Source: a virus
IMG/VR virus record: IMGVR_UViG_3300009409_000041
Coordinates: 1 to 24,806 of that record
Direction: 5' to 3' (one strand)
Length of the DNA: 24,806 bases
In this document: piece after piece, positions 1 through 24,003 of the stretch
How positions within the stretch are numbered: the first letter of the stretch is position 1
Layout of the letters: each line of letters starts with the position of its first letter
Made by a program: the position numbers and the translations under genes
Notes under the pieces: model-generated
Seen by the model: only the letters and a program-made list of their open reading frames with translations
What the model was told of the DNA's origin: nothing
The model's database searches: none

Positions 1-123
1 GATAGCTATTCTAATAACCTCAGGAATGATGTTAAGACATCTGACCAAAACTATACAATGCTCAGACTACAGAACATGGTATCCAATGATATAGAGACTG
101 TTAATATAACAGGACTTACCTAA
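1..123 (+). CDS. C-terminal end of an unidentified protein (partial)
   Basis: Frame 1 is open from the first base of the window and ends at TAA 121-123. It gives 40 residues that end ...NDIETVNITGLT. The start lies upstream of the window. The fragment is polar and rich in Asn, Asp and Thr, and I recognise no motif in it. A strong hairpin terminator follows 24 bases after the stop, so this is the last gene of a plus-strand unit. No function can be assigned. Confidence 0.6.
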   Translation, partial: DSYSNNLRNDVKTSDQNYTMLRLQNMVSNDIETVNITGLT

Positions 124-147
124 CGGATAGAAACATATAAAGAAAGA

Positions 148-173
148 GGGGAGGCTAACGCTTCCCCTTTTTT
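148..173 (+). terminator. Rho-independent terminator, probably bidirectional
   Basis: GGGGAGGC (148-155) pairs with GCTTCCCC (160-167) across a TAAC loop, with one G-T wobble. A T6 run follows at 168-173. It closes the plus-strand gene ending at 123. Read on the other strand the same hairpin lies just past the stop of the minus-strand gene and is followed by a T-rich stretch, so it could serve both convergent genes. Confidence 0.85.
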
Positions 174-606
174 ATTTCCGTATCTTCTTGAGGGCTTCCT
201 CCTGTCTTAGCTTGTTCTCCTTCTTGTAATAGAATCCATACTTCTGTTCAGCCCTAATGATTCCTTTCTTATTGTGATGAGACTTCTCATTGTCAGGGAA
301 CTTACCTGTCTCTAGTATCCTGTACAGTACATCACATACCCTCTTACCTTTGATGGTTACTTCATACAGTGCTTTGAATCTACCTGCTACTGCATTACGA
401 AACTTAGACACTACGCCTTTCTGAATCATTTTAGCTAGCCTATTCTTATCCCACTTAAGTAAACCTTCAAACCTTTCTAAGTCTTCCTTACTAAACCTAC
501 CGCATCCTTTGAGGTATAGTAGCAACTCTAGTTCATCTAGTGTTATGTCGTGCTCCATAAGTATGTACTTACGCGCACCTCTTAGGTATTTTAAGTAGTC
601 TTTCAT
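172..606 (-). CDS. Winged helix-turn-helix (MarR-like) DNA-binding protein
   Basis: This 144-residue protein is the only minus-strand gene seen. From about residue 20 to 100 it reads as a MarR-type winged helix: a helix (LDELELLLYL), a second helix (FSKEDLERFEGLL), a recognition-helix candidate (WDKNRLAKMIQKGVVSKF), then a wing ending in LYEVTIKGKRV, like the L-T-x-x-G segment of MarR proteins. The tail is very basic. A longer reading from 627 exists, but its extra seven codons contain the promoter element TATATTTG (617-624, minus strand), so I take the ATG at 604-606. Proteins of this style recur in marine Bacteroidetes phages as I remember them. It lies divergently from the spike-gene unit and shares its short promoter region. 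It is probably a transcription regulator; the target is unknown. Confidence 0.65.
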   Translation of the reverse strand: MKDYLKYLRGARKYILMEHDITLDELELLLYLKGCGRFSKEDLERFEGLLKWDKNRLAKMIQKGVVSKFRNAVAGRFKALYEVTIKGKRVCDVLYRILETGKFPDNEKSHHNKKGIIRAEQKYGFYYKKENKLRQEEALKKIRK

Positions 607-616
607 TTCAGTTTCA

Positions 617-624
617 CAAATATA
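617..624 (-). promoter_or_regulatory. Bacteroidetes-type -7 element for the winged-helix gene
   Basis: On the minus strand this reads TATATTTG, matching TAnnTTTG. It lies 10 bases before the ATG at 606. No clear TTTG is seen at the usual -33 distance. It is back to back with the plus-strand box at 643-650. Confidence 0.5.
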
Positions 625-642
625 CATCGGATTTATTTAGCG

Positions 643-650
643 TATCTTTG
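643..650 (+). promoter_or_regulatory. Bacteroidetes-type -7 element, TATCTTTG
   Basis: TATCTTTG is preceded by TTAGCG, the same six bases that precede the box at 2236. Only five bases separate it from the ATG at 656, so transcription would begin at or near the start codon. No convincing -33 box is visible. It should drive the unit 656-2207. Confidence 0.65.
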
Positions 651-655
651 TCTCC

Positions 656-835
656 ATGAAGAAGAAACTAATTACTATAGACCTAACGGTCATATCTGAC
701 TGTCTAGAAAACACTTACCTAGTTATACTTTGCAAAGAATACATTGCTGCATTGAACAAGGTTGGTGCATCAATGGATAAGCTAGCTAAGAAGATAATCA
801 AAGCATTGGAAGCTTTCAAGAAGGAGGTGAACTAA
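656..835 (+). CDS. Small protein of unknown function (59 aa)
   Basis: The reading frame starts at the ATG five bases after a TATCTTTG promoter box and ends at TAA 833-835. The product starts MKKKLITIDLTVISDCLENT and ends in a Lys-rich amphipathic stretch (MDKLAKKIIKALEAFKKEVN). I see no signal peptide or clear membrane span. Its support comes from the promoter placement and from its tight fit with the next small gene, 18 bases on. I do not recognise the family. Confidence 0.6.
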   Translation: MKKKLITIDLTVISDCLENTYLVILCKEYIAALNKVGASMDKLAKKIIKALEAFKKEVN

Positions 836-853
836 CATTGCAACTAAGTACTA

Positions 854-1021
854 ATGAAAGGACTAGGTGATACTATAGAACTCATTACTAAGCTTACCGG
901 CATAAAGAAGTTGGTTGAATCAACAGTGAAAGATTGTGGTTGTGGTAAGAGAAAGGACAAGCTTAATAAGCTAGTACCATACACTCAACCTAAACCTATC
1001 AAGAAGAAACAAGTTATATAA
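854..1021 (+). CDS. Small conserved phage protein with a CxC-basic motif (55 aa)
   Basis: The product begins MKGLGDTIELITKLTGIKKL, continues to DCGCGKRKDKLNKLVPY (about residues 28-44) and ends in a Lys/Pro-rich tail. The plan of G-L-G-D-T start, amphipathic helix, paired cysteines, basic residues and LNKLxPY recurs in many unrelated phages as I remember them, usually next to tail or lysis genes; no function is known to me. The cysteines could bind a metal or form a disulphide, but two alone would not make a zinc site without dimerisation. ATG at 854 is the only sensible start. An AAGGAGGTG string lies 25 bases upstream, inside the previous gene, too far to be a normal ribosome-binding site. 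Confidence 0.65.
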   Translation: MKGLGDTIELITKLTGIKKLVESTVKDCGCGKRKDKLNKLVPYTQPKPIKKKQVI

Positions 1022-1041
1022 CAAAACAAAACAAATAAGAT

Positions 1042-1296
1042 ATGTCTTATCAAAAATTACAAGCTCACAACGCTGTTGTTGTTACACCAAGTGACACAGC
1101 AACGATACAACTAAACGGTAAAAATACTCGTGGTTGTTTAGTATACTGCGGTGTAGGTGGAGACCTAGCTGTTACTACTACAGGTGGTGAGGACGTTGTA
1201 TTCGTAGGTGTTCCTCAGGGAATGATTCTACCTGTACAAGTTGTTAAGGTTCTAGCTACAGGCACTACTGCTGCTTCCTTAATAAGCTTACACTAA
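1042..1296 (+). CDS. Spike-base-like structural protein (RCAP_Rcc01079-like)
   Basis: This 84-residue protein is almost entirely beta-type. The sequence VVVTPSDTATIQLNG is followed by GCLVYCGVGGDLAVTT, VVFVGVPQG, LPVQVVKVLATGTTAASL. That order (VTPSD, hhYhGxxGDhxVxxxGG, F-x-GVPxGxxLPhxhxxVxATGTTA) is the pattern I know from the small head-spike-base protein of the Rhodobacter gene transfer agent and many phage relatives. It probably anchors a head or tail spike. Its stop overlaps the start of the LamG-like gene by one base (TAATG at 1294-1298), which fits a base-plus-spike pair. The leader at 1022-1041 is a tandem CAAAA-rich stretch, A-rich as Bacteroidetes ribosome-binding regions tend to be. 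Confidence 0.65.
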   Translation: MSYQKLQAHNAVVVTPSDTATIQLNGKNTRGCLVYCGVGGDLAVTTTGGEDVVFVGVPQGMILPVQVVKVLATGTTAASLISLH

Positions 1297-2207
1297 TGTT
1301 TATAGGCTCAGCGATAGCGGTTAACGCTTTCCCTCCCCAAACGTTACCTATCCTAGCTGCCCGTAGTGGTGGTGGTGGTGGTGATGCTTTGGCTGCCTTA
1401 GTAAACCCTTTCTCTATTGTAGCTCAACCTAAGTTAGAGTCAGTATCCATGCCTATTCCTCAAGGGTCAGGGTATCAGCAGTACACTCAAGACTGTTGGT
1501 TCAAAGTTCCTGTCGGAGGATTTCCTGCTGCAGGTTCTTTAGAGATATGGTCGATAGAGCCCTTCTCTTTAGAGAGAGGTAGAATTAAGGTAACTAACAG
1601 TAGTACTATATCTGTAGAATACGGTAACTTTAATGGAGGCGTTACTACAGAGACTTTCACTTCAGCACCATTTGCTTCGGGCTACTTTGCTCCGGACTCA
1701 TGGCATCACTTCGTGTGGACATTCGAGTCACTCGCTGTAGAAGGTGACTCTACTCTAAACAACTATGCACGAGGAAGTGTATCTAAGTTATGGGTTGACG
1801 GTGTGCTTGTAGTTACATCAGTTAACGCAATTCACTTTGCTCTCACAAGGTCTCAAATTCTAAGTAGCGTTTCAAGTAAACTAAGAACAGGGTTAAATAG
1901 CGAGGGGTATCACGCTTACTCTATTATACCTAAGCTACTAACTGACGAGCAATGTGTAGCTCTTTACAATGGTGGAATTCCTGCTGACATGAGGTTGCAC
2001 CCTGAGTATCAGGATGATGACTTTATGTACTACCTATTCGGTGGAGGTGAAGATTCTCTTGGGAATCCTGATGGAAACGGATGGACAGGTTCAAGTCCGA
2101 ACTTCGCATACCACATATACAATATGGGGACAGGAGCTTTAGACTCTCATTCCATGATACAGTCTACTGTTGTGGACAGGGTATCATCGAATACTCCGGT
2201 ATCTTAA
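1296..2207 (+). CDS. LamG/concanavalin-like lectin-fold virion protein
   Basis: The 303-residue protein has a short hydrophobic N-terminus, a five-glycine linker (about residues 25-29) and a beta-rich body. Diagnostic stretches are SWHHFVWTFE (about 137-146), SKLWVDGVLVV and LTDEQCVALYNGGIPADM (about 211-228). The last resembles the LTxEExxALYNGG tail common in LamG-type jelly-roll domains of phage and marine proteins. Such domains bind sugars or pack against other proteins. Coupled by a TAATG overlap to the spike-base-like gene, it is most likely a head or tail spike that meets the host surface. The N-terminus before the glycine run may be the attachment segment. No catalytic residues are evident. 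Confidence 0.6.
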   Translation: MFIGSAIAVNAFPPQTLPILAARSGGGGGDALAALVNPFSIVAQPKLESVSMPIPQGSGYQQYTQDCWFKVPVGGFPAAGSLEIWSIEPFSLERGRIKVTNSSTISVEYGNFNGGVTTETFTSAPFASGYFAPDSWHHFVWTFESLAVEGDSTLNNYARGSVSKLWVDGVLVVTSVNAIHFALTRSQILSSVSSKLRTGLNSEGYHAYSIIPKLLTDEQCVALYNGGIPADMRLHPEYQDDDFMYYLFGGGEDSLGNPDGNGWTGSSPNFAYHIYNMGTGALDSHSMIQSTVVDRVSSNTPVS

Positions 2208-2232
2208 GATAGAAATTAACATAATGAAATTA

Positions 2233-2258
2233 GCGTACCTTTGTAGTACGCTTTTTTT
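2233..2258 (+). terminator. Hairpin terminator with a promoter element in its loop
   Basis: GCGTAC (2233-2238) and GTACGC (2246-2251) form a perfect six-pair stem around a seven-base loop, followed by T7 (2252-2258). It lies 26 bases after the LamG-like stop and would end that unit. TACCTTTG, a promoter -7 box, spans the left arm and the loop. Confidence 0.7.
2236..2243 (+). promoter_or_regulatory. Bacteroidetes-type -7 element, TACCTTTG, for the lysis unit
   Basis: TACCTTTG is preceded by TTAGCG, as at 643. It lies 15 bases before the ATG at 2259 and 27 before the ATG at 2271. A start 5-6 bases downstream would give a leader of about 20 bases to the second ATG. A good -33 box is not visible. 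Confidence 0.6.
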
Positions 2259-2270
2259 ATGCGCTATAAT

Positions 2271-2699
2271 ATGAGAAACATAGACAAGATAATTATTCAC
2301 TGCTCCGCTACCCAAGAAGGTAAGGACATAAGTGTTGATACAATTCGTAGGTGGCACGTAGAAGGTAGAGGATGGTCAGACATTGGATACCATTTCGTCG
2401 TAGCACTAGATGGTTCTATAGATTACGGAAGAGACTTAGATAGACAAGGTGCTCATACAAAGGGGCACAACAAAGGTTCTATCGGAATTTGCTACATCGG
2501 AGGAGTAGAAGCAGAGAGAGGAGATAACGGTAAGTGGATTGCAAAGGATACAAGAACAGACGAGCAGAAGCAAGCTCTACTAGATTTACTAGTAGTACTA
2601 AAGAGACTTCACCCTGAGGCTATTATACACGGACACAAGGAGTTTGCCGCTAAGTCATGCCCCTGCTTTGATGCATACAAAGAATACAAGTCACTATGA
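2271..2699 (+). CDS. N-acetylmuramoyl-L-alanine amidase (phage endolysin, PGRP/Amidase_2 fold)
   Basis: This enzyme cuts the bond between N-acetylmuramic acid and L-alanine in peptidoglycan to release progeny. From the ATG at 2271 the protein has 142 residues, near the T7 lysozyme size. Zinc ligands are His10 (IIIHCSAT), His122 (HGHKEF) and Cys130 (KSCPCFD). Tyr40 (IGYHFVV) and Lys128 fit the other two catalytic residues of T7 lysozyme, so the set is complete. An ATG at 2259 adds four residues; I prefer 2271 because the family typically begins with the MRxIDKIIIHCSA segment and 2259 would leave only a very short leader. There is no signal peptide, so a holin must let it out. Its stop overlaps the holin start (ATGA at 2696-2699). 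Confidence 0.9.
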   Translation: MRNIDKIIIHCSATQEGKDISVDTIRRWHVEGRGWSDIGYHFVVALDGSIDYGRDLDRQGAHTKGHNKGSIGICYIGGVEAERGDNGKWIAKDTRTDEQKQALLDLLVVLKRLHPEAIIHGHKEFAAKSCPCFDAYKEYKSL

Positions 2700-3133
2700 G
2701 CAAAGAAAGAAAGAAGATAAAAGATACTAAGTTAGGTCAGTGGTTGTCAGTAAAAGCACCTGAGGTTCTAGCTATTGTAGGAGAATTACTTCCTGATAGC
2801 GGTACTCTAGGTGTATTAAAAAACCTATTGTCTAAGACTGATGTCTCACCTGAAGAAGCAGCAGCAGCTATTAACGCTGAGGTTGAGTATCAGAAGCAAG
2901 TTACTTTCCGTTGGGAAGCTGACATGAAAGGAGACTCTAAGATAGCTCAGTACATACGCCCCGTTACACTGATTACATTGATGGCAATGTTTTTTGTTAT
3001 CGTTCTATGCGACTCAGTTGAGGGATGGAACTTCGACGTTAAGGATAGCTATGTTAGTTTATTAGAGATACTAATGCTTACAGCATTCGGAGCTTACTTC
3101 GCAGGACGTAGCTTAGAGAAGATTAAGAAGTAA
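2696..3133 (+). CDS. Holin, 3TM (GTA-type) superfamily
   Basis: This membrane protein probably opens the inner membrane for the endolysin. It has 145 residues. An amphipathic N-terminal region is followed by FRWEADMKGDSKIAQYIRP (about 71-89), matching the W-x-x-D-M-x-x-D-S-x-x-x-x-x-R-P signature of the 3TM holin family from gene-transfer-agent and phage systems. Two clear membrane spans follow, about 89-105 and 119-137, with a basic tail (RSLEKIKK). The canonical third segment would be the weakly hydrophobic stretch near residues 22-46. It overlaps the amidase by ATGA and the next gene by TAATG. The overlap pattern suggests coupled translation across the lysis cassette. Confidence 0.75.
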   Translation: MSKERKKIKDTKLGQWLSVKAPEVLAIVGELLPDSGTLGVLKNLLSKTDVSPEEAAAAINAEVEYQKQVTFRWEADMKGDSKIAQYIRPVTLITLMAMFFVIVLCDSVEGWNFDVKDSYVSLLEILMLTAFGAYFAGRSLEKIKK

Positions 3134-3510
3134 TGGCTACTCAAAAGGAATTACTATACAAAGTCCTAGATAACGCTCAGCACGATAAGCGTGATAGAGA
3201 AGAAGAGAGGAAGGTTGTAGAGTCTCACTTACTAGAGATGAAGCGTGTACAGAAGGACATGACTAATCAGATTGGTATGATACAAGACGTTATCTCTGAC
3301 CCGGTTACAGGATTAATCGTGTCAACCAATAAGAACACTGAGTGGAGAGCTAGGATGTCTGAAGAGTTTAAGCAGTTAGCTAACGAAAGAACAGAGCAGA
3401 CTAGACTCCTAGATGAGTTAGGTCGTTGGAAGTCTGTCATGGATAAGGCTATGTGGATTACATTCACAGCTATCGTAGGTATCGTTCTTAAGATGATACT
3501 TTTTCCTTAA
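3133..3510 (+). CDS. Coiled-coil protein with C-terminal membrane anchor, lysis-associated (XhlA-like plan)
   Basis: This 125-residue protein is strongly charged and helical over about residues 1-100 (for example DREEERKVVESHLLEMKR, and FKQLANERTEQTRLLDELGR). It ends in one membrane span, about 106-125 (MWITFTAIVGIVLKMILFP). A soluble coiled coil with a C-terminal anchor is the plan of XhlA-type haemolysin/holin accessory proteins. Placement directly after amidase and holin, with a TAATG overlap, supports a role in lysis. A spanin-type role is less likely, since there is no N-terminal anchor, signal peptide or lipobox. Family membership is inferred from architecture. Confidence 0.55.
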   Translation: MATQKELLYKVLDNAQHDKRDREEERKVVESHLLEMKRVQKDMTNQIGMIQDVISDPVTGLIVSTNKNTEWRARMSEEFKQLANERTEQTRLLDELGRWKSVMDKAMWITFTAIVGIVLKMILFP

Positions 3511-3522
3511 AAATTTATTGCG

Positions 3523-3530
3523 TACTTTTG
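3523..3530 (+). promoter_or_regulatory. Bacteroidetes-type -7 element, TACTTTTG, for the packaging unit
   Basis: TACTTTTG is preceded by TTATTGCG, close to the TTAGCG context at 643 and 2236. It lies 19 bases before the ATG at 3550. An inverted repeat (3528-3550) overlaps its end and the start codon. No clear -33 box is seen. It should drive 3550-9293. Confidence 0.65.
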
Positions 3531-3550
3531 TTACTCAAATCAAGTAACAA
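3528..3550 (+). repeat. Inverted repeat between promoter and start codon
   Basis: TTGTTACT (3528-3535) and AGTAACAA (3543-3550) are perfect inverted copies around a seven-base spacer. The left arm covers the last bases of the -7 box and the right arm ends on the A of the start codon. No T-run follows, so it is not a terminator. If transcription starts 5-7 bases after the box, the left arm is mostly not in the message, which favours a DNA operator over an RNA hairpin. Confidence 0.5.
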
Positions 3551-3774
3551 TGGATATTCGAAAAATAAGTGTAGGTCCGGACTATAAGTCAGGTGCTATG
3601 CATTACATAAAAGGACAGCAAGTTCTTAACGGCTCTCATGAGATACACCTCATAGCACAGAGCGAAGATGGTACAATAAAGATATGGTTAGAGAATGATG
3701 ACGCAGAGATACTTCTATGGAAGTCTTTCACATCTACAATGCCTGTATCAATAGAGTATAACATCTACTTCTAG
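3550..3774 (+). CDS. Conserved phage protein of unknown function (74 aa)
   Basis: The product begins MDIRKISVGPDYKSGAMHYI and ends SFTSTMPVSIEYNIYF. I remember closely similar small proteins (KISxGPDYK, AMHYIxGQxV, HxIHLI, KIWxE, LLWKxF, MPVSIEYNI) near the packaging genes of Bacteroidetes phages, always without a function. It is predicted beta-rich, soluble and compact. It is the first gene of the packaging unit. The stop codon TAG 3772-3774 is followed in frame by TGA, and its last base is the first base of the next gene's GTG start. Confidence 0.65.
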   Translation: MDIRKISVGPDYKSGAMHYIKGQQVLNGSHEIHLIAQSEDGTIKIWLENDDAEILLWKSFTSTMPVSIEYNIYF

Positions 3775-4343
3775 TGAGGTCACCCTATGACTTCATAGTA
3801 AAACCTGTTGATGGTAGACGCTACGCTAACTCTAAGGAGATAGGTGGTGTTGAGATATACACTAGTGTGTCAGACGAAGACCACACATCAGCTAATAGAT
3901 TAGGTGAGGTTATAGCTTTACCTATAGGATACGAAGGACCTATTGTAATAGGAGATACTCTCTTAGTACATCACAACGTATTCAAGTTCTACAATGATAT
4001 GCAGGGTGTACAAAAGAGTGGACGTAGCTACTTCAGAGATGGCTTATTCTTTATAGACAGCGTACAGTATTACATGTATCACAATGGTACAGAGTGGAAT
4101 ACGGTAGGTGACTACAGCTTCATCACACCTATACAGAGAGTAGAGGCAGAAGATGAGATGTTCAAGTACGCAGGAGAAGAACCTTTAGTAGGGTTGATTA
4201 AGTATCCTAGTGGTAACATGAAGTCATTAGGAATTAAAGCAGGAGATAAGATTACATACTATCCGGGAATGGAGTATGAGTTCAAAGTAGAGGAGGAGAA
4301 GATATACAGGCTTATGGATAAGCACATTACAATGGTACTATGA
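3774..4343 (+). CDS. GroES-like (Cpn10-fold) protein, candidate phage co-chaperonin
   Basis: The 189-residue protein begins at GTG 3774, overlapping the previous stop (TAGTG). The next in-frame Met is near residue 76, after the key motifs, so GTG is the credible start. YDFIVKPV (5-12) matches the first strand of GroES (DRVIVKP). GGVEI (24-28) occupies the place of the GGIVL GroEL-binding loop. LGEVIALP (43-50) and PIVIGDTLLVHHNVFKFY (56-73) match the GEVxAVG and hxVGDxVhF strands. Residues about 137-189 (VGLIKYP, GIKAGDKITYYP, EEKIYRLMDKHITMVL) look like a second, diverged barrel. T4 gp31 sets the precedent of a phage GroES replacement needed to fold capsid protein. Its place just before terminase, portal and capsid genes fits. 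The alternative is a structural beta-barrel with no chaperonin role. Confidence 0.55.
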   Translation: MRSPYDFIVKPVDGRRYANSKEIGGVEIYTSVSDEDHTSANRLGEVIALPIGYEGPIVIGDTLLVHHNVFKFYNDMQGVQKSGRSYFRDGLFFIDSVQYYMYHNGTEWNTVGDYSFITPIQRVEAEDEMFKYAGEEPLVGLIKYPSGNMKSLGIKAGDKITYYPGMEYEFKVEEEKIYRLMDKHITMVL

Positions 4344-4633
4344 CTAACGAAGAATTAAGACTAGAGCTTATAGCTGCAGGTAAGCAAGCTGTCAAGCATC
4401 TAATAAAAGTAGCTAAGAAAGACATCCTTAAGGACGTTGACATGGAAGATGACTTAGCAGCAGACAAAATGAAGAATGCAGCAGCAGCAAAGAAGCTAGC
4501 TATATTCGATGCCTTTGAAATCCTAGCAAGGGTAGAGCAAGAGAAAATTAATCTAGAGCAGTCTAAAGGAGCAGGCTCTCGCGTAGATACTAAACAAGGT
4601 TTTGCAGAAAGAAGAAGCAACAAGCCAAAGTAA
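4340..4633 (+). CDS. Helical protein before TerL, possible small terminase subunit
   Basis: This 97-residue protein is almost entirely helical and charged. It contains DLAADKMKNAAAAKKLAIFD (about 39-58) followed by AFEILARVEQEKINLEQ, and a basic tail. Position (overlapping the GroES-like gene by ATGA and ending 7 bases before TerL), size and helical character fit a small terminase subunit, which recognises the phage DNA and feeds it to TerL. I see no clear helix-turn-helix. I remember similar NAAAAKKLAxxDAFEIL proteins before TerL in other Bacteroidetes phages, but not a proven role. Confidence 0.5.
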   Translation: MTNEELRLELIAAGKQAVKHLIKVAKKDILKDVDMEDDLAADKMKNAAAAKKLAIFDAFEILARVEQEKINLEQSKGAGSRVDTKQGFAERRSNKPK

Positions 4634-4640
4634 TCAGCTT

Positions 4641-6857
4641 ATGGTTGTAGTGGATAGCACTATACCAAAGCAGATATACACGCGCAAGAACACAGCTAAG
4701 TCATGGGACTATGGTTACAACTCTGAGTATGATATAGTTATCATATCCAAGGATGGAACTCTAGGTAACGTGGTAGAGATATCAGGGTTGCGTATAGGAT
4801 TACCTAAGACTCCTGAATCCGTATGGGCTAGGGATACTGATACTACTAAGCAGTATTGGGAGAGACAAGAACTTCCTAAGGACATACGTCGTATACAGAC
4901 TATATTCCAATGGAACGAGATGCCTACAGACTTTAAGGAAAGATTCGTTGATTACATTGAGGGTGAGTTTGATAGGAGAGAAGGAGGACATTGGTTTATG
5001 AACAATGGTATACCTACATACATGACAGGTTCACAGTACATGTATCTTCAGTGGAGTAGTATTGACGTAGGTTTCGCGGACTTCCGTGAGGCTAATAGAA
5101 TCTTCTTTATATTTTGGGAAGCATGTAAGGCTGACAAGCGTAGCTTTGGAATGAACTACTTAAAGATTCGTCGTTCAGGATTCTCATTCATGAGTAGTGC
5201 TGAGTGTGTTAATCAAGGTACGTTAGCTAGTGATTCAAGAGTAGGTATACTATCTAAGACAGGTAGTGATGCTAAGAAGATGTTTACAGATAAGGTTGTA
5301 CCTATATCTATGAAGCTACCATTCTTCTTCAAGCCTGTTCAAGATGGTATGGATAGACCTAAGATGGAGTTAGCCTACCGTGTTCCTGCTAAGAAGCTGA
5401 CTAAGAACAACATGCATGAGGTTGAGGATGAGCAGATGATGGGGCTAGATACTACTATTGATTGGAAGAACACAGACGATAACTCTTACGATGGTGAGAA
5501 GCTATTGCTTATGGTTCATGATGAGAGTGGTAAGTGGATTAAGCCTAACAATATTCTAAACAATTGGCGAGTAACTAAGACTTGTTTACGTTTAGGTAGT
5601 AAAATTATCGGTAAGTGTATGATGGGTTCTACCTGTAACGCACTAGCTAAAGGTGGTGATAACTTCAAGAAGATATACGAAGACTCTAGAACTAACAAAC
5701 GTAACGGTAACGGTCAGACTAAGAGTGGTATGTATTCTATATTCATTCCTATGGAGTGGAACATGGAAGGGTTCATTGATATGTACGGTCAACCTGTATT
5801 CAATACTCCTGACAAACCTTTACTAGGTGTTGATGGGGAGATGATTGAGCAAGGTGCTGTAGACTATTGGCAAGCTGAGGTTGATTCACTTAAGGATGAT
5901 GCTGATGCACTGAACGAATTCTATCGTCAGTTCCCACGTACAGAGTCACATGCTTTCCGTGATGAGAGTAAGGATTCTATCTTTAACTTAACTAAGATAT
6001 ACCAACAGGTAGACTTCAATGATTCAGTAGAGAAAGCTCACTATGTAACACAAGGTTCTTTCTCTTGGGAGAATGGGATAAGGGATACTAAGGTTATCTT
6101 CTCTCCTAATAAAGCAGGTAGATTCTATGTGTCATGGATTCCTGAGAAAGGATTACAGAATAACGTACAGACTAGACAAGGTATTAGATATCCGGGTAAC
6201 GAACACCTAGGTGCATTCGGTTGTGACTCGTATGATATATCAGGTACTGTAGGAGGTAGAGGTTCTAATGGTGCATTCCATGGCTTAACTAAGTTCAACA
6301 TGGATAACGCTCCTAGTAACGAGTTCTTCTTAGAGTATGTAGCTAGACCACAGACAGCAGAGATATTCTTTGAGGATATCCTTATGGCCTGTGTATTCTA
6401 CGGCATGCCTTTGCTTTGTGAGAACAATAAGCCTAGACTATTATACCACATGAAGAACAGAGGTTACCGTGGCTATAGTATGAATCGTCCCGATAAAGTC
6501 TATAACAAGCTCTCTAAGACAGAGAAAGAGCTTGGGGGTATACCTAACTCGTCCGAAGATATTAAGCAGGCTCACGCCTCTGCAATTGAGTCTTACATAG
6601 AAAAGTACATAGGGTACGATACCACAGGTTCGTTCAGAGCTTCTGATGAGATAGGCACTATGCCTTTCGAACGTACACTGAATGATTGGTCGAAGTTCGA
6701 TATTAACAATCGAACAAAGTTCGATGCCTCCATCTCTTCGGGATTAGCTATCATGGCTACTCAGAAACATCTTTATCAGCCCGTAAAAAAAGCTGAGAAA
6801 ATAAGTGTTACCTTTGCTAGGTACAAAAACACAGGTTCAAGAAGCGAAATATATTAG
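4641..6857 (+). CDS. terL: Terminase large subunit (packaging ATPase and nuclease)
   Basis: TerL pumps phage DNA through the portal into the prohead and cuts it. I take ATG 4641, 7 bases after the preceding stop, giving 738 residues; a TTG at 4602 lies inside the previous gene. The ATPase half shows a degenerate Walker A at about 174-183 (LKIRRSGFSF), Walker B with catalytic acid at 288-295 (LLLMVHDE), and a coupling motif MMGSTCN near 327-333. The nuclease half shows the RNase-H-like first acid in GCDSYD (527-532), CENNKPR (593-599), and a late acidic site in SSEDIKQAH (637-645). The P-loop lysine is replaced by Phe. The TAG stop (6855-6857) touches the portal ATG in the same frame. Confidence 0.88.
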   Translation: MVVVDSTIPKQIYTRKNTAKSWDYGYNSEYDIVIISKDGTLGNVVEISGLRIGLPKTPESVWARDTDTTKQYWERQELPKDIRRIQTIFQWNEMPTDFKERFVDYIEGEFDRREGGHWFMNNGIPTYMTGSQYMYLQWSSIDVGFADFREANRIFFIFWEACKADKRSFGMNYLKIRRSGFSFMSSAECVNQGTLASDSRVGILSKTGSDAKKMFTDKVVPISMKLPFFFKPVQDGMDRPKMELAYRVPAKKLTKNNMHEVEDEQMMGLDTTIDWKNTDDNSYDGEKLLLMVHDESGKWIKPNNILNNWRVTKTCLRLGSKIIGKCMMGSTCNALAKGGDNFKKIYEDSRTNKRNGNGQTKSGMYSIFIPMEWNMEGFIDMYGQPVFNTPDKPLLGVDGEMIEQGAVDYWQAEVDSLKDDADALNEFYRQFPRTESHAFRDESKDSIFNLTKIYQQVDFNDSVEKAHYVTQGSFSWENGIRDTKVIFSPNKAGRFYVSWIPEKGLQNNVQTRQGIRYPGNEHLGAFGCDSYDISGTVGGRGSNGAFHGLTKFNMDNAPSNEFFLEYVARPQTAEIFFEDILMACVFYGMPLLCENNKPRLLYHMKNRGYRGYSMNRPDKVYNKLSKTEKELGGIPNSSEDIKQAHASAIESYIEKYIGYDTTGSFRASDEIGTMPFERTLNDWSKFDINNRTKFDASISSGLAIMATQKHLYQPVKKAEKISVTFARYKNTGSRSEIY

Positions 6858-9293
6858 ATGAAAGACGTAAAAGTTAATATCACATCGACTAGTTTTCCTA
6901 GTCAATTAGCAACAGATGCAGAAAAAGCAACTGACGAGTTTGGTCTAAAGGTCGGACAGGCTATTCAATACGAATGGTTCAGGAAAGACGGTGGAGGTAG
7001 TCGTTTCTATAATCAGTGGGATGAGTTTCATAAGTTACGTTTGTATGCAAGAGGCGAACAGTCTACTGCAAAGTACAAGCAAGAGATGGCTGTGGACGGA
7101 GACCTAAGTTACTTAAACTTAGATTGGACTCCTGTACCTATTCTTCCTAAGTTTGTTGATATCGTTGTCAACGGAATGTCTAACAGGCTGTTCTCTCCTA
7201 AAGCATACGCTCAAGACGCAATGTCTCAGAGCAAGAGAACTAAGCATCAAGACATGATAGAAGGGCAGATGGTAGCTAAGGATGTTTTATCTGCAGTAGC
7301 AGACGGAACAGGAATGAATCCTTTTTCCATGCCTGTAAACGAACTACCTCAGAATGATGAGGAGATGCAATTACATATGCAGCTTAACTATAAGCCTGCT
7401 ATCGAGATTGCAGAGGAAGCAGCCATCTCTACAATATTTGCTGAGAACAAGTATGATGACATCCGTAAGCGTATGGATTATGACATCACTACACTCGGTA
7501 TAGGTATCGCTCGTCATGACTTCCTACCGGGAGCAGGCATCGATATCAACTACGTTGACCCTGCTACTGTAGTATACAGTTACACGGAAGACCCACACTT
7601 TGAAGATTGTTTCTATTGGGGAGAAGTTAAGACTGTTCCTTTAACAGAGATAAGAAAGATTGACCCGAACATATCTACAGCAGAGCTAGAGACTATTCAG
7701 AGTTCAGGACAAGCTTGGCACAACTTCCATACCACTGCTCAGAAGTTTGACGGTGATTCATTTGAAAGAGATACAGTATCTCTTATGTACTTCAACTACA
7801 AGACTACTAAGAAGTTTGTATACAAGAAGAAGAAATTAGAAAACGGTGGTAGCCGTATTATAGAGAAGGATGAGACGTTTGACCCTCCACAAGAAATGCT
7901 AGACGAAGGTAACTTCGAGCGTATGGAGAAGGTTATAGACGTATGGTACTCAGGCGTAATGGTTCTAGGTACAAATATTGTATTGAAGTGGGCTCTTGAA
8001 GAAAACATGGTTCGTCCTAAGTCTTCATCACAGCATGCTATCCCTAACTTCGTAGCCGTTGCGCCACGTATGTACAAGGGAAGGATTGAATCTCTAGTTA
8101 GAAGGATGATACCATTCGCTGACTCGATTCAAATCACACATCTTAAGTTACAGCAAGTTATCAATCGTGTAGTTCCTGATGGAGTTTACATTGATGCAGA
8201 TGGTCTCAATGAAGTAGACCTAGGTAACGGTGCAGCGTACAGTCCTCAGGATGCTCTTAACCTATACTTCCAAACGGGTAGTGTAATAGGTAGAAGCTCT
8301 ACACAGGACGGAGAGTTTAACCACGGTAAGACTCCTATCACGCAACTTACATCATCTTCGGGGGCTAGTAAGTCACAGATGCTCGTCAGCAATTACAACC
8401 ACTACCTTGGTATGATAAGGTCAGTCACCGGACTGAACGAAGCACGAGACGGTTCTACCCCCGATTCAAACTCTCTAGTAGGAGTGCAGAAGTTAGCAGC
8501 ATTAAACTCTAACACAGCTACACGCCACATACTAGACGGAAGTCTATACCTATACAAGACTTTAGCAGAAGCTATCTCTTACAGAGTGGCAGACATACTA
8601 GAGTACGCAGACTTCGCAGACGATTTCGCAAATAAGATTGGTAAGTACAATGTCTCTATACTTAGAGAGATGTCTGACCTATACATATATGACTTCGGTA
8701 TCTTTATTGAAGTAGCACCGGATGAGGAGCAGAAGCAAATGCTTGAGCAGAATATTCAGATGGCTCTATCTAAGAGTAGTATTAACTTAGAGGACGCTAT
8801 TGATATCCGTGAGCTTAAGAGTATCAAGCTAGGTAACCAATTACTAAAGGTTAAGCGTAAAGCTAAAGCAGACAAGGAGCAGGAGCAAGCTATGCAGCAG
8901 CAAGCTATGCAAGCTAAGATGACGCAGGAGAGTAACGCACAGATGGCTCAGGCTTCTATGGCACAGACTCAAGCTACTCTAGATTCCAAGATACAAATCG
9001 TACAGATGGAAGCACAGCTAGCTATGCAGAAGACTCAGACAGAAGTAGCAGCTAAGATGCAGCTTATGGAGAAAGAGTTCTCATACCAAATGCAGCTAGC
9101 AGGTATGGCTAATGAAGGTCAGAATGCTCGTAACAGTGAGAAAGAAAAGGCTAAAGACTCACGTCTAGATAAGGCTTCTTCTCAGCAATCTAAACTGATA
9201 GACCAAAGAAAGAATAACCTTCCACCTACTTCATTCGAATCGAATGAGGATAGCTTAGATGGTTTTGACTTATCGGAGTTTGACCCTCGATAA
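6858..9293 (+). CDS. Portal protein
   Basis: The portal is the dodecameric ring through which DNA enters and leaves the head. The 811 residues are typical of large podovirus and crAss-related portals. Evidence includes position right after TerL, the segment PILPKFVDIVVNGMSNRLF (about 94-112) that resembles the portal clip/stem entry, the central fold (RKRMDYDITTLGIGIARHDF, then INYVDPATVVYSY) and a long helical stretch near 560-640. From about 660 to 760 the chain is a Gln/Met/Ala-rich coiled coil (repeated AMQQQAMQ, MAQASMAQTQ, MQLMEKEF), likely the barrel that projects into the head. The tail is Ser/Asp/Glu-rich. There is no gap to TerL. Confidence 0.85.
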   Translation: MKDVKVNITSTSFPSQLATDAEKATDEFGLKVGQAIQYEWFRKDGGGSRFYNQWDEFHKLRLYARGEQSTAKYKQEMAVDGDLSYLNLDWTPVPILPKFVDIVVNGMSNRLFSPKAYAQDAMSQSKRTKHQDMIEGQMVAKDVLSAVADGTGMNPFSMPVNELPQNDEEMQLHMQLNYKPAIEIAEEAAISTIFAENKYDDIRKRMDYDITTLGIGIARHDFLPGAGIDINYVDPATVVYSYTEDPHFEDCFYWGEVKTVPLTEIRKIDPNISTAELETIQSSGQAWHNFHTTAQKFDGDSFERDTVSLMYFNYKTTKKFVYKKKKLENGGSRIIEKDETFDPPQEMLDEGNFERMEKVIDVWYSGVMVLGTNIVLKWALEENMVRPKSSSQHAIPNFVAVAPRMYKGRIESLVRRMIPFADSIQITHLKLQQVINRVVPDGVYIDADGLNEVDLGNGAAYSPQDALNLYFQTGSVIGRSSTQDGEFNHGKTPITQLTSSSGASKSQMLVSNYNHYLGMIRSVTGLNEARDGSTPDSNSLVGVQKLAALNSNTATRHILDGSLYLYKTLAEAISYRVADILEYADFADDFANKIGKYNVSILREMSDLYIYDFGIFIEVAPDEEQKQMLEQNIQMALSKSSINLEDAIDIRELKSIKLGNQLLKVKRKAKADKEQEQAMQQQAMQAKMTQESNAQMAQASMAQTQATLDSKIQIVQMEAQLAMQKTQTEVAAKMQLMEKEFSYQMQLAGMANEGQNARNSEKEKAKDSRLDKASSQQSKLIDQRKNNLPPTSFESNEDSLDGFDLSEFDPR

Positions 9294-9310
9294 CGTTTGT
9301 AATCTTTGAG

Positions 9311-9332
9311 TTAACTTTGCGGTACAAATTAA
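9311..9332 (+). repeat. Imperfect inverted repeat over the scaffold promoter
   Basis: TTAA-C-TTTG (9311-9319) and CAAATTAA (9325-9332) are inverted copies around CGGTA, with one bulged C. The left arm contains most of the -7 box and the right arm lies at the expected transcription start. Confidence 0.35.
9312..9319 (+). promoter_or_regulatory. Bacteroidetes-type -7 element, TAACTTTG, for scaffold and capsid
   Basis: TAACTTTG lies 25 bases before the scaffold ATG and 19 bases after the portal stop, with no terminator between. The next bases are CGGTA, identical to those after the box at 11995. TTTG at 9296-9299 is too close (12-base spacer) to be a normal -33 box. Confidence 0.55.
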
Positions 9333-9344
9333 TTTACTTATATA

Positions 9345-10496
9345 ATGGGATTTACAATCAAAGAAGTTGCTTCTCCTGACACGCAGTCAGCAGCAGAAGT
9401 TGAAGAGAAGTTGATAAACGATGCGGAAGCAAAGCACGAAGGTGTAGGAGCTGAAGTAGAAACAACAGAAGGTGAGACACCGGTAGTGAGACTAGCTACA
9501 GAGACTACGGATACTGAATCAGCTGACGCTGAAGAAGTTGTTGCAGACACAAATGATACTCCTTCACTTAGTGAAGACGAAGTTCTTTCATTCTTAAAAA
9601 ACAAATATGGTAGGGAAGCTGCTTCCTTAGATGAGTTCACTGCAGAACCTGAGAGTTCAGGAGATAGCAAGGAACTTCCTGAAGACGTAGCTGCCTACTT
9701 ACAATATACAGAAGCCACAGGACGTGGGATGCAGGATTACCTAAGACTTAATAGGGATGTTGCTTCTATGGATAGTGATACTTTGCTTAAGGAATACTTT
9801 ACCGATACCGAGACTGACCTAGATGCCGAGGATATACAGGACTTAATGAATGAGTTCAAATATGATGAGGAACTAGATGAAGACAAAGACGTTCGTAAAG
9901 TTAAAAGAGCAAAGAAGAAAGCTGTAGCCCAAGCAAAAGAATATTTTGTAGAGCAGTCTAAGATGTATGCCGAGCCAACGAGTGTTGGTTCAAGTGCTAT
10001 GTCAGAAGCTGACACAGAAAGTTTTGCTGCTTACAAGGAGACAGTTGCAACCGCAGAGACTACACGCGAAGCGAATGAAGCTAAGTCTAATGCTTTCGAT
10101 AGTGCGACTAACGCAGTATTCGGAAATGATTTCAAAGGTTTTGATTTCAATATAGACGGAAACGATTTCACTTTCAACGCAGGTACAGCGGCTGAGTTAA
10201 AGACAGCACAGTCTACACCTATGAACTTCATTGGTAAGTTTATGGATGAGAGTGGTGTGATTAACGACGCAGCAGGATACCATAAGGCTCTTAACGTTGC
10301 TATGAACCCTACGAAGTTTGCCGAGTTCTTTTACGAGCAAGGACAAGCTAACGCTAAGGATTCAGTTATACGAGGAACTAAGAATATAAACATGGGAACT
10401 CGTACAGCACCCGAAGTATCATCTAAAGGTGGTACTACAATTAAGGCTCTTCATACCTCACACGGTAGAGGGCTTAAAATAAAAAGTAGAAAATAA
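9345..10496 (+). CDS. Capsid scaffolding protein (candidate)
   Basis: This 383-residue protein sits between portal and major capsid protein, the usual place of a scaffold. Residues 1-115 are very acidic and low in complexity (Glu, Thr, Ala, Asp), and about 116-260 are charged helices (for example DLMNEFKYDEELDEDKDVRK, KRAKKKAVAQAKEYF). The C-terminus is basic and flexible (SHGRGLKIKSRK). An acidic helical body with a basic C-terminal hook is how scaffolds such as those of P22 bind the inside of the capsid lattice. It would be expelled or cut before DNA enters; I see no protease gene in the window. Assignment is from position and composition. Confidence 0.65.
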   Translation: MGFTIKEVASPDTQSAAEVEEKLINDAEAKHEGVGAEVETTEGETPVVRLATETTDTESADAEEVVADTNDTPSLSEDEVLSFLKNKYGREAASLDEFTAEPESSGDSKELPEDVAAYLQYTEATGRGMQDYLRLNRDVASMDSDTLLKEYFTDTETDLDAEDIQDLMNEFKYDEELDEDKDVRKVKRAKKKAVAQAKEYFVEQSKMYAEPTSVGSSAMSEADTESFAAYKETVATAETTREANEAKSNAFDSATNAVFGNDFKGFDFNIDGNDFTFNAGTAAELKTAQSTPMNFIGKFMDESGVINDAAGYHKALNVAMNPTKFAEFFYEQGQANAKDSVIRGTKNINMGTRTAPEVSSKGGTTIKALHTSHGRGLKIKSRK

Positions 10497-10499
10497 TAT

Positions 10500-10512
10500 A
10501 GCCGACCCGGCT
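10500..10512 (+). other. Short stem-loop in the scaffold-capsid gap
   Basis: AGCCG (10500-10504) pairs with CGGCT (10508-10512) around ACC. It is only five pairs and no T-run follows, so it is not a terminator. The 42-base gap has no promoter box. The stem might shield or process the capsid message, but this is speculative. Confidence 0.25.
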
Positions 10513-10538
10513 TTCAGGGTAAACTAAAAATATATAAT

Positions 10539-11918
10539 ATGGCCGGTACATTAAACGTAGGAGGTGTTGCATTGCAGCCCTCACACGAACAAGTTGCTCT
10601 AGCGAGTAACTACATAACAGACATGGATTTCTTGTCGCAGCACTTACCTGATACTTATGAGGCAGAGTTCGAGCGTTACGGAAACCGTTCTGTATCTTCT
10701 TTTTTACGTCTTGTTGGAGCGGAGCTTCCGTCTACATCAGACCTAATCAAGTGGACTGAGCAGGGACGTCTTCACACGAAGTACGTAAACTGTGCATCTG
10801 ACGCTGCAGCAACAGCTGACACAGCAACTATCACAGTTACTGATTCAGTATCAGCATCTAATAACATCGCTATCCGTGTTGGACAGACTGTTCTTATTTC
10901 TGACAACGCAGGAAGCGGAAGCAACAAAGCTATCGTAACTGCAGTTGACGCAGGTACATTCGACGTAGCTTACTATGAGGCAGCAGGACAAGTGTTCGCA
11001 GCAGCTGATACAGTAACAGTTATGATTTACGGTTCTGAGTTCGGAAAAGGAACTAACGGAATGGTAGGTTCTAACGAAGCACAAGTTGACGTATACTCTA
11101 ACTCTCCTATCATCATTAAGGACAAGTACGCTGTAAGCGGTTCTGACATGGCACAGATTGGATGGGTAGAAGTAGCTACTGAAAACGGAGCTTCAGGTTT
11201 CCTATGGTACTTAAAGTCTGAGCACGAAACACGTCTACGTTTCGAGGATTACTTAGAGACTGCAATGATTGAAGCTGTACCTGCAGAGGCTGCAAGTGGA
11301 GCTATCGCTGCTGACGCTAAGGGAACTGAGGGTGTATTCCACGCAGTGGAGAACCGTGGTAACCTTTGGAGTGGTGGTAACCCAACTTCTTTAGCTGAGT
11401 TTGATGATATCATCGCTCGTCTAGATAAGCAAGGTGCTATCGAGGAGAACGTTCTTTTCGTAAACCGTGAGTTCGGTTTCAACATTGACGATATGCTAGC
11501 TGCACAATCTGTATCTACAGGTGCTGCTTACGGTTTATTCGACAATGATAAGGACATGGCTCTTAACCTAGGTTTCACAGGATTCCGTAGAGGTTACGAT
11601 TTCTACAAGTCTGATTGGAAGTACTTAAACGACGCTTCAATGAGAGGTGGTCTAGGTTCTGACAGCGTAAACGGAATGTTAGTACCTGCCGGTTCTACAA
11701 CTGTATACGACCAAGTTCTAGGTAAGAACGCTAAGCGTCCATTCCTTCACGTACGTTACAGAGCTTCTCAAGCTGAAGACCGTAAGATGAAGACTTGGAT
11801 TACAGGTTCTGCAGGAGGAGCTTCAACTAGCGACCTTGATGCTATGGAGGTTAACTTCCTAAGCGAGAGAGCTATTTGTACTCTTGGTGCTAACAACTTC
11901 GTTCTTTTCACTGACTAA
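10539..11918 (+). CDS. Major capsid protein, HK97 fold (crAss-related type)
   Basis: This protein of 459 residues forms the icosahedral shell. RYGNRSVSSFLRLVGAELP and SDLIKWTEQGRLHT (about 46-80) are the segments I associate with major capsid proteins of crAss-related phages. Residues about 85-165 form a Thr/Val/Ala-rich beta insertion (ATITVTDSVS, VGQTVLISDNAG, VTVMIYGSEFG), likely a surface domain. The rest is the core (GYDFYKSDWKYLND, then RKMKTWITGSAGG, then ERAICTLGANNFVLF). It follows the scaffold without its own promoter and is closed by a terminator. Arginine is nearly always CGT and many codons end in C, unlike the AGA-rich tail genes, as expected for the most abundant product. Confidence 0.88.
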   Translation: MAGTLNVGGVALQPSHEQVALASNYITDMDFLSQHLPDTYEAEFERYGNRSVSSFLRLVGAELPSTSDLIKWTEQGRLHTKYVNCASDAAATADTATITVTDSVSASNNIAIRVGQTVLISDNAGSGSNKAIVTAVDAGTFDVAYYEAAGQVFAAADTVTVMIYGSEFGKGTNGMVGSNEAQVDVYSNSPIIIKDKYAVSGSDMAQIGWVEVATENGASGFLWYLKSEHETRLRFEDYLETAMIEAVPAEAASGAIAADAKGTEGVFHAVENRGNLWSGGNPTSLAEFDDIIARLDKQGAIEENVLFVNREFGFNIDDMLAAQSVSTGAAYGLFDNDKDMALNLGFTGFRRGYDFYKSDWKYLNDASMRGGLGSDSVNGMLVPAGSTTVYDQVLGKNAKRPFLHVRYRASQAEDRKMKTWITGSAGGASTSDLDAMEVNFLSERAICTLGANNFVLFTD

Positions 11919-11945
11919 TTAGTTAGAGAAATATAAGTTGTATGA

Positions 11946-11976
11946 GGGGGCTGCCGTAAGGTGGCCCTTTCTTTTT
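11946..11976 (+). terminator. Rho-independent terminator after the capsid gene
   Basis: GGGCTGCC (11948-11955) pairs with GGTGGCCC (11960-11967) with two wobbles around a GTAA loop. TTTCTTTTT follows (11968-11976). It lies 27 bases after the capsid stop. Confidence 0.85.
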
Positions 11977-11994
11977 GCCTTACAATTTGTGTTG

Positions 11995-12002
11995 TATATT
12001 TG
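11995..12002 (+). promoter_or_regulatory. Bacteroidetes-type promoter, TATATTTG with a -33 TTTG
   Basis: TATATTTG lies 31 bases before the ATG at 12034. TTTG at 11974-11977 is 17 bases upstream, so this is the only plus-strand box here with a plausible -33 partner. A perfect inverted repeat, GTAATT-A-AATTAC (12005-12017), sits at the expected transcription start. Confidence 0.7.
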
Positions 12003-12004
12003 CG

Positions 12005-12017
12005 GTAATTAAATTAC
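12005..12017 (+). repeat. Inverted repeat at a capsid-region transcription start
   Basis: GTAATT and AATTAC flank a single A. The 13-base palindrome begins three bases after the -7 box and covers the likely start of transcription. It is A/T-rich and short, so chance is possible. Confidence 0.35.
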
Positions 12018-12033
12018 TAAATAATTAAATCTT

Positions 12034-12780
12034 ATGAAGAACTCACAGTTCACTAACAAGTCTTATAGACTTACTCGCGGTAAAGCTCCTTTATCTTTTA
12101 CTATTCCTTCACGTAACTCTAAGCGTTACGCACTTCTACACTTTGATGAGAAGACAGGATACCAACGTGCATTACGTTACGCACAAAACCAAAAGTCACC
12201 TTTCGAAGATGAGCAAGACGGCAATGCTGTATTAGCTCCTGTTGTATTCCTAGATGGTTTACTACACGTTCCTAAGGAGAACCAAGTATTACAACACTTC
12301 CTATCTCTACACCCATTGAATGGTCTTAAATTTGAGGAGGTGAATCACGAAGCTTCTGCTAAGAAAGAAGTAGAGAACCTAGACCTTGAAGTTGATGCAT
12401 TGATTGCAGCTCGTGGTTTAAGTGTTGACATGATGGAGACAGTAGGACGTATCCTATTTGACACAGACGTTACAACAATGACTACATCAGAATTAAAGAG
12501 AGACATCTTAGTTTACTCTAAGCGTGACCCTATCTCTTTCCTAAGTGTGGTTAATGACCCTGAACTTATCTTCAACGGAAGAGTTGCACAGTTCTTAGAT
12601 GCTAAGCTTATTGCTTTCCGTAACAACAAGAAAGAAGTTTACTTTAACACTCCTTCTAACAAGAAGCGTATGATGACTGTACCATTCGGTGATGACCCAA
12701 TGATTGCACTAGCATCTTACTTCAAATCAGACGAAGGTCTTGAGCAGTACGAAGGACTAGAAAGTCTACTAGGACTGTAA
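12034..12780 (+). CDS. Conserved protein downstream of the capsid gene, unknown function
   Basis: This 248-residue protein has an N-terminal half with a beta-rich start (SFTIPSRNSKRYALLHFDEK) and a charged helical centre (HEASAKKEVENLDLEVDAL). The C-terminal part reads MTTSELKRDILVYSKRDPIS, VYFNTPSNKKRMMTVPFGDD and IALASYFKSDEGLEQYEGLE. I remember this C-terminal pattern (K-R-D/N-P-x-x-F-L, R-K-L-M-T-V-P-F, A-S-F-F-K-T-D-E-G-L) in proteins just after the capsid gene of Bacteroidetes phages, without a known role. It is alone in its unit, between a terminator at 11946 and another at 12806, with its own promoter. Codon use is capsid-like (CGT arginine), so it is probably made in quantity. It may be an auxiliary capsid protein. 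Confidence 0.65.
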   Translation: MKNSQFTNKSYRLTRGKAPLSFTIPSRNSKRYALLHFDEKTGYQRALRYAQNQKSPFEDEQDGNAVLAPVVFLDGLLHVPKENQVLQHFLSLHPLNGLKFEEVNHEASAKKEVENLDLEVDALIAARGLSVDMMETVGRILFDTDVTTMTTSELKRDILVYSKRDPISFLSVVNDPELIFNGRVAQFLDAKLIAFRNNKKEVYFNTPSNKKRMMTVPFGDDPMIALASYFKSDEGLEQYEGLESLLGL

Positions 12781-12805
12781 AAAACAAATTACTCATGTTT
12801 AATTA

Positions 12806-12832
12806 AGGAGAGCTTCACGGCTCTCCTTTTTT
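12806..12832 (+). terminator. Rho-independent terminator
   Basis: GGAGAGC (12807-12813) and GCTCTCC (12820-12826) form a perfect seven-pair stem, extendable by an A-T pair, around a TTCACG loop. T6 follows. The next promoter box begins five bases after the T-run. Confidence 0.88.
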
Positions 12833-12836
12833 ATTG

Positions 12837-12844
12837 TATCTTTG
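12837..12844 (+). promoter_or_regulatory. Bacteroidetes-type -7 element, TATCTTTG, for the neck and tail unit
   Basis: TATCTTTG has TTATTG before it and only four bases (TTAC) between it and the ATG at 12849. It should drive the neck and tail genes up to 20796. No -33 box is clear; the region it would occupy is the terminator stem. Confidence 0.7.
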
Positions 12845-12848
12845 TTAC

Positions 12849-19997: not shown

Positions 19998-20007
19998 TAA
20001 ATAAGAC

Positions 20008-23959: not shown

Positions 23960-23990
23960 AAGGGGGGCATTCGCTCCCCTTCGTTGTTTT
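23960..23990 (+). terminator. Rho-independent terminator
   Basis: AAGGGGGGC (23960-23968) pairs with GCTCCCCTT (23973-23981), with one wobble, around an ATTC loop. A T-rich stretch (CGTTGTTTT) follows. It closes the unit ending at 23932; the next promoter box starts within ten bases. Confidence 0.8.
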
Positions 23991-23995
23991 ATTCG

Positions 23996-24003
23996 TATAT
24001 TTG
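23996..24003 (+). promoter_or_regulatory. Bacteroidetes-type -7 element, TATATTTG
   Basis: TATATTTG is preceded by TTATTCG and followed by four bases (TAGT) before the ATG at 24008. The pattern repeats that at 12837. No -33 box is obvious. Confidence 0.7.

Follow-up and report, generated by a model that had tools for sequence, protein, structure and literature searches.

A putative intrinsic terminator that carries a candidate promoter box ahead of the lysis genes of an IMG/VR phage

Intrinsic (Rho-independent) terminators are the closest match for the element described here, which shares with them a hairpin directly before a T tract, soon past a stop codon, and differs from them in that the left arm and the loop also spell a promoter box. 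A terminator that overlaps the start region of the next gene is found between two units in Escherichia coli, namely the frd terminator/ampC attenuator; in that case, the hairpin is located downstream of the promoter and the terminator is encountered by the new RNA as well, whereas in the phage element (positions 2232-2258 of the DNA analysed) the predicted start lies within the hairpin and the new RNA would escape the terminator. The designed terminator-promoter bifunctional elements of yeast, as described in the available part of the source (PMC10298055), likewise give one stretch a dual job, with a TATA-like sequence serving both; they are engineered and consist of yeast signals, and neither a hairpin terminator nor a start within an arm is mentioned in that part. 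This was the one engineered case found in the open-access literature (subscription papers were outside the scope), and the available portions of that literature contain no natural promoter box that overlaps one arm of a terminator and has its start in the opposite arm. In addition, E. coli polymerase in vitro stays on the DNA after RNA release and re-initiates, which, in the excerpts of the source used here, is proposed to favour terminators and promoters that lie close together (PMC11347151); a promoter as near to a terminator as in the phage element could catch such a retained polymerase, the difference being that the demonstration concerns E. coli polymerase in vitro.

The promoter part of the comparison is the housekeeping promoter of Bacteroidota, with a -33 TTTG and a -7 TAHHTTTG element (PMC6847099). 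In the portions of that study used here, G is avoided at the two middle positions of the -7 element of F. johnsoniae, many of the predicted starts follow this element at a distance of 4 or 5 nt, and the -33 motif is much less evident than the AT-rich motifs at -18 and -28. The phage element resembles this promoter in its exact -7 box, the AT-rich sequence upstream and an ATG in range, and differs in the absence of TTTG at -33, the embedding of the box in an inverted repeat and the position of the predicted start in the right arm.

The element is located in the IMG/VR record IMGVR_UViG_3300009409_000041 (24.8 kb), the whole of which, 24,806 nucleotides, was analysed and is referred to below as the window. 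The virus encodes a terminase and a portal protein, and its 1547-aa protein matches the crAssvirus muzzle family above the family cut-off (E 4.7e-11). The 70 named phages with similar DNA comprise 68 of Flavobacterium, one of Maribacter and one unclassified phage, which is the top match, and the host group of the virus looks like Flavobacteria-like bacteria. Between the stop codon of the upstream gene and the ATG at 2271 lies a gap of 63 bases (Table 1). As this gap is followed by the genes for an amidase (phrog_822) and a holin (phrog_3427), the downstream unit is a lysis cassette, in agreement with the original prediction. The amidase start is likely ATG 2271 (MRNIDK) rather than ATG 2259; in the best 80 of at least 583 amidase loci, the position equivalent to 2271 holds ATG in 73, GTG or TTG in three and neither in four. 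The description of the upstream unit as 'LamG-like' finds weak backing in the homologue of the upstream protein in a related phage, L086, which matches Laminin_G_3 below the cut-off (E 1.4e-5; 25.8 bits, cut-off 27.6), and none in the window protein, for which the searches gave no family match.

Table 1. Coordinates of the candidate element and of the neighbouring genes in the window.
Feature	Position	Strand	Evidence
Upstream gene	1296-2207 (stop codon 2205-2207)	+	ORF list
Conserved block AGAAATTAACA, about -37 to -27 of the predicted start	2211-2221	+	Identical in L086
Left arm AGCGTAC	2232-2238	+	Stem search, fold
-7 box TACCTTTG, exact fit to Bacteroidota TAHHTTTG	2236-2243	+	Motif match; consensus from the part of PMC6847099 used
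Right arm GTACGCT	2246-2252	+	Stem search, fold
Predicted transcription start, A, 4 nt past the box, within the right arm	2248	+	Inferred; spacing from the part of PMC6847099 used
T7 tract, also part of the predicted leader	2252-2258	+	Sequence
Amidase (N-acetylmuramoyl-L-alanine amidase, endolysin)	2271-2699 (ATG 2271 likely)	+	phrog_822, E 1.7e-55; Amidase_2, E 1.1e-12
Holin	2696-3133	+	phrog_3427, E 2e-19

The element reads AGCGTAC-CTTTGTA-GTACGCT, then T7. The hairpin with a following T run that had been predicted is present exactly as described, with core arms GCGTAC (2233-2238) and GTACGC (2246-2251); the pair A2232-T2252 lengthens the stem to 7 bp, leaving a loop of 7 nt, and four of the pairs are G-C. 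Hence the locus has the G+C-containing hairpin directly before a T run by which intrinsic terminators are recognized. The region 2226-2258 folds with -10.4 kcal/mol (z -5.0), and 2208-2262 with -13.6 kcal/mol (z -4.05), in each case equalled by none of 200 shuffles; other terminators of the phage fold better (-17.0 kcal/mol for 12795-12836 and -19.9 for 136-172, vs -10.4). Under a strict rule (at least six Watson-Crick pairs, at least three of them G-C, and at least six T in the next seven bases), the window holds two terminators, one at 12805-12828 and the 2232-2258 element, and a single box out of the 16 TAHHTTTG matches sits inside such a terminator, an arrangement seen in none of 600 dinucleotide shuffles in a test framed post hoc, with the element already seen. 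A looser scan of positions 1-20000 yields 18 terminator-like sites against 9.7 expected, and none of the Rfam leader and attenuator families matches the window above the gathering score.

The box, which had been assigned to the loop and the left arm, does lie within the hairpin, more precisely with its first three bases closing the left arm and only the last five in the loop. Of the two signatures of Bacteroidota sigma-A (ABfr) promoters, the -7 TAHHTTTG is present and the -33 TTTG is absent, its position being occupied by AGAAATTAACA. Because TTTG is missing there and the -33 motif is itself weak in the cited portions of PMC6847099, TACCTTTG is probably best regarded as working like such a promoter, short of a proven member of the class. 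In both the window and L086, it is the sole TAHHTTTG box of the gap. Its distance to the ATG, 27 nt in the window and 21 nt in L086, falls within the spread of the 117 box-ATG promoters compiled for these phages (3-31 nt examined).

TAHHTTTG is a real promoter class in these phages, enriched at gene starts. When the distances from 817 distinct boxes in 160 related loci and the window to an open ATG are surveyed, the 4-5 nt bin holds 22 pairs and the 13-23 nt bin 108, compared with 0-3 and 16-39, respectively, for four control motifs (564-987 sites), two of which show a single sharp peak of their own elsewhere (66 at 11 nt and 35 at 9 nt). Within the window, GCGTANNTTTG occurs four times on the forward strand (once within a gene, at 5138) and never on the reverse strand, and its reversed control is absent. 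Boxes at 643, 12837, 20803 and 23996 of the window, as well as in many related loci, end 3-5 nt before an ATG; under the rule of a start 4-5 nt past the box, their messages would be leaderless or nearly so. This leaderless-type peak at 4-5 nt is clear across the related phages, whereas in F. johnsoniae, according to the portions of PMC6847099 used here, leaders exceed 10 nt in 87% of the transcripts that have a probable promoter. At 617-650 of the window, the plus-strand box at 643 adjoins, in divergent orientation, a box on the minus strand, TATATTTG (reading down from 624); for the minus-strand gene listed at 172-627, a later ATG (MKDYL) is the probable start, as for its counterpart in L086, which has a similar divergent pair of boxes but in which the plus-strand gene served differs.

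L086 (IMG/VR contig 3300020430_000247; L028, L179 and L452 of other searches are the same locus) appears to be the closest relative among the matches listed and the sole other carrier of the element in this lineage. Its gene order is that of the window, and the element occupies the same place between the genes, at 8591-8616. The two phages are well diverged: the upstream proteins are identical at 79 of 262 residues and nine gene pairs agree at 206 of 367 4-fold sites (56%), and yet 27 of the 28 bases of 2233-2260 are identical (binomial p = 2e-6 at the 56% rate). Both halves of the composite are included in this conservation: GTACGC plus T7, not required for a promoter, is identical at 13/13 positions (5e-4 at the same rate), and AGAAATTAACA, not required for a terminator, at 11/11 (2e-3). 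The two changes in the hairpin each retain or add a pair: L086 has G in place of A2245, so that a C-G pair replaces the C-A mismatch, and G in place of A2232, so that G-U replaces A-U; neither alters both sides of a pair in this comparison of two sequences. The L086 hairpin folds at -17.9 kcal/mol (z -6.4), and the T tract takes part in some of its 13 pairs. Two plain promoters could be matched between the phages, and in both, the three bases that precede the box have changed (GCG to TTG at 643; GCG to AAC at 3523, with a further change in the middle pair of that box), whereas in the composite these three bases are part of the stem and are unchanged. We read this pattern, which comes from one phage pair, as suggestive of selection on both the terminator and the promoter parts. 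Another inverted repeat, TTGTTACT/AGTAACAA, is found at 3528-3550 of the window, right after a -7 box and overlapping its TTTG, in the leader of a 74-aa gene; the matching repeat of L086 (TTGTTATT/AATAACAA, 9864-9886) differs by a compensatory C-G to T-A change, and this is perhaps a conserved leader hairpin or dyad.

The best explanation of these observations, which we consider probable with some reservation, is that of a compact terminator-promoter with a dual reading. The proposal that one element ends a structural unit and starts lysis accordingly stands as the best-supported reading, given that both parts are kept in L086, the class of the box is real and the predicted start lies in the right arm. 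The anatomy, the calculated fold, the joint conservation in L086 and the enrichment of the box class at gene starts are observed; termination and initiation, the exact start, the use of the host polymerase and any influence between the two functions are inferred. A polymerase arriving from the tail genes would transcribe both arms, an RNA hairpin followed by U7 would form, and upstream transcription would stop at about 2252-2258. The host polymerase with the Bacteroidota housekeeping sigma would use TACCTTTG and start at about A2248 (A2248/C2249), and the new RNA would proceed into the amidase and holin genes. Since it would start inside the right arm, this RNA would be devoid of the left arm and could not form the hairpin; the terminator would thus be formable only by RNA from the upstream polymerase, which, given the predicted start, is the most telling part of the anatomy. 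For RNA spanning 2248-2290, the computed fold (-3.2 kcal/mol; z -0.07) does not surpass that of shuffled sequences. Points against the dual reading are the number of carriers, two, the lack of a canonical -33 TTTG, the low number of G-C pairs in the stem, four, and the fold, less stable than those of the other two terminators.

The strongest competing explanation, which we hold to be unlikely, is that the hairpin is a terminator and nothing else, the TAnnTTTG match being a coincidence and the lysis genes being expressed by readthrough or from an unseen promoter. It draws on look-alike hairpins in an unrelated virus family. The pattern GCGTANNTTTGNNNTACGCTTTT retrieves 14 viral stretches, namely L086, nine near-identical look-alikes (L085, L088-L091, L093, L094, L096 and L097) and four others. 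The look-alike family is akin to the Nonlabens phages P12024S/L (as tested with two L093 proteins) and unrelated to the window phage; its element, GCGTACATTTGATGTACGC followed by T8, lies downstream of an apparent structural gene, and the near-identical hairpin holds the box TACATTTG. Among the relatives of the look-alikes (68 of 69 loci, with L671, which ends inside the gene, left out), there are 47 distinct gaps, all of which have a hairpin and a T tract by a loose rule, whereas a box is found inside the hairpin in 9 of the 47 gaps (12 of the 68 loci), all in one clade. The other clades have stems unrelated in sequence (by eye), without a box inside, and in L628 and L629, members of the boxed clade, the box is lost (TGCATTTG) and the stem is retained via a G-U pair. 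The nine look-alikes were considered as a second, convergent case of the composite and rejected on account of the boxless clades and the broken box of L628 and L629; most simply, the look-alike hairpin would be a terminator in which the box is dispensable. A stem kept without the box implies that a box in a terminator can be a coincidence, and by analogy the same could apply to the window element. Against coincidence in the window stand the conserved block near -33, shared with L086, the usual distance to the ATG and the lack of any other box in the gap. The look-alike L093 differs in these respects, the next start being 49 nt from the box, vs 21-27 nt in the window and L086, and the look-alike gaps contain an additional conserved AT-rich motif ahead of the ATG (by eye). 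In the corresponding gap of L621-L689, after a 181-aa gene, the terminator is conserved in position and its stem differs by clade; a motif without TTTG, about AAAACAAA, recurs there and is followed by TTTATAAGT immediately ahead of ATGAT (as judged by eye), perhaps a different kind of promoter.

The amidase loci of other relatives also speak for a terminator alone. Among the best 80 of the amidase loci, two (L028 and L035) have a TAHHTTTG in the 97 nt that precede the amidase start and 78 have none there, so that the lysis genes manage without such a promoter in most of the kin. The element itself precedes the amidase in one of these 80 loci, which is L086 again, and no third copy was found via the terminase (best 80 of at least 600), the holin (best 80 of 187) or the tail fibre (49 loci); in the holin ranking, L086 comes first with 81%, and the other 79 loci kept are at 67% or below. 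The 49 tail-fibre loci contain 318 distinct boxes, one of which, that of L086, lies in a hairpin. Across 258 loci, some of them fetched by this very motif, 11 of 2,173 distinct TAnnTTTG contexts satisfy a loose rule for a hairpin with a T tract; among these, four or more G-C pairs are found only in the window, L086 and L085. A BLAST search of the gap against named phages (E limit 10) returned 22 records, with E of about 3 among the matches listed, and none spanned 80% of the query. A looser pattern, together with the GCGTANNTTTGNNNTACGCTTTT loci, gave at least 105 distinct sites, with both outer pairs in 15 among the matches listed. For a design with the box TATCTTTG, stems are not clearly in excess among the matches listed, full pairing being seen at 2 of 89 distinct sites, compared with none of 89 in an order-reversed control and about 1.4 expected by simple pairing odds. 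In bacterial genomes, GTACNTTTGNNGTACNNTTTTT was found in 79 contigs, with both outer pairs in 3 of 29 from Bacteroidota (by record titles) and 12 of 50 others. The looser, TATCTTTG and GTACNTTTGNNGTACNNTTTTT searches therefore give no sign of a widespread class of elements.

Conversely, the locus could be a promoter only, the dyad being a DNA operator for a dimeric repressor and the T run a feature of the leader or of translation. A dyad over the -7 box is in the usual place of an operator, and the promoter at 3523 likewise has an inverted repeat adjoining its box. This explanation appears improbable in view of the T7 positioned exactly 3' of the right arm in both phages and of the hairpin changes, which retain or improve the RNA pairing, the one to G-U breaking the symmetry of the DNA. 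That the element is a functionless chance inverted repeat beside a T run, as the two carriers and the post hoc tests might suggest, is barely credible given the 0/600 shuffles and an identity of 27/28 against the 56% at 4-fold sites (binomial 2e-6).

The terminator-promoter reading can also be viewed against junctions in which the two signals stand side by side. By a strict rule, a terminator is followed by a box within 70 nt at 5 of the 117 promoters of these phages (200 mononucleotide shuffles gave 0.025 on average and never more than 1). The box lies 8-23 nt past the start of the T tract, and further cases were recognized by eye, for example, at 4455 of L086 and in L207. Terminator-like hairpins lie directly before boxes at 12805-12844, 11944-12002 and about 23970-24003 of the window, of which 12805-12844 alone passes this rule. 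These side-by-side junctions (for example, window 12805-12844, L154 and L190) have the same job at a unit border, the difference being that the signals are separate there and share bases in the 2232-2258 element. We read the composite as the limiting, most compact form of this series, and compact packing alone is a sufficient reason for the element.

Several forms of coupling between the two functions are possible, and they differ in the sign of the effect: a polymerase paused at the T run could cover the promoter (occlusion), an open complex could stop an oncoming polymerase (roadblock), or, by analogy with the recycling seen in vitro, a polymerase that has released its RNA could stay on the DNA and start again (re-initiation). 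A specific version of the last, in which the polymerase stopped at 2252-2258 stays and is caught by sigma, with the start only 4-10 bp behind, is a long shot. If this hand-off were true, each round of tail-gene transcription would feed the lysis promoter instead of silencing it, and lysis would rise with late structural transcription, opposite in sign to the original prediction, in which readthrough might silence the promoter. If both functions are real, the element would be close to the smallest border between two transcription units, with stop and start sharing bases and the start positioned such that the stop could be formed by through-transcripts alone. The element would then be a naturally occurring model in which to study whether a promoter that overlaps a terminator is occluded or fed by termination, and how the phages of Bacteroidota time lysis.
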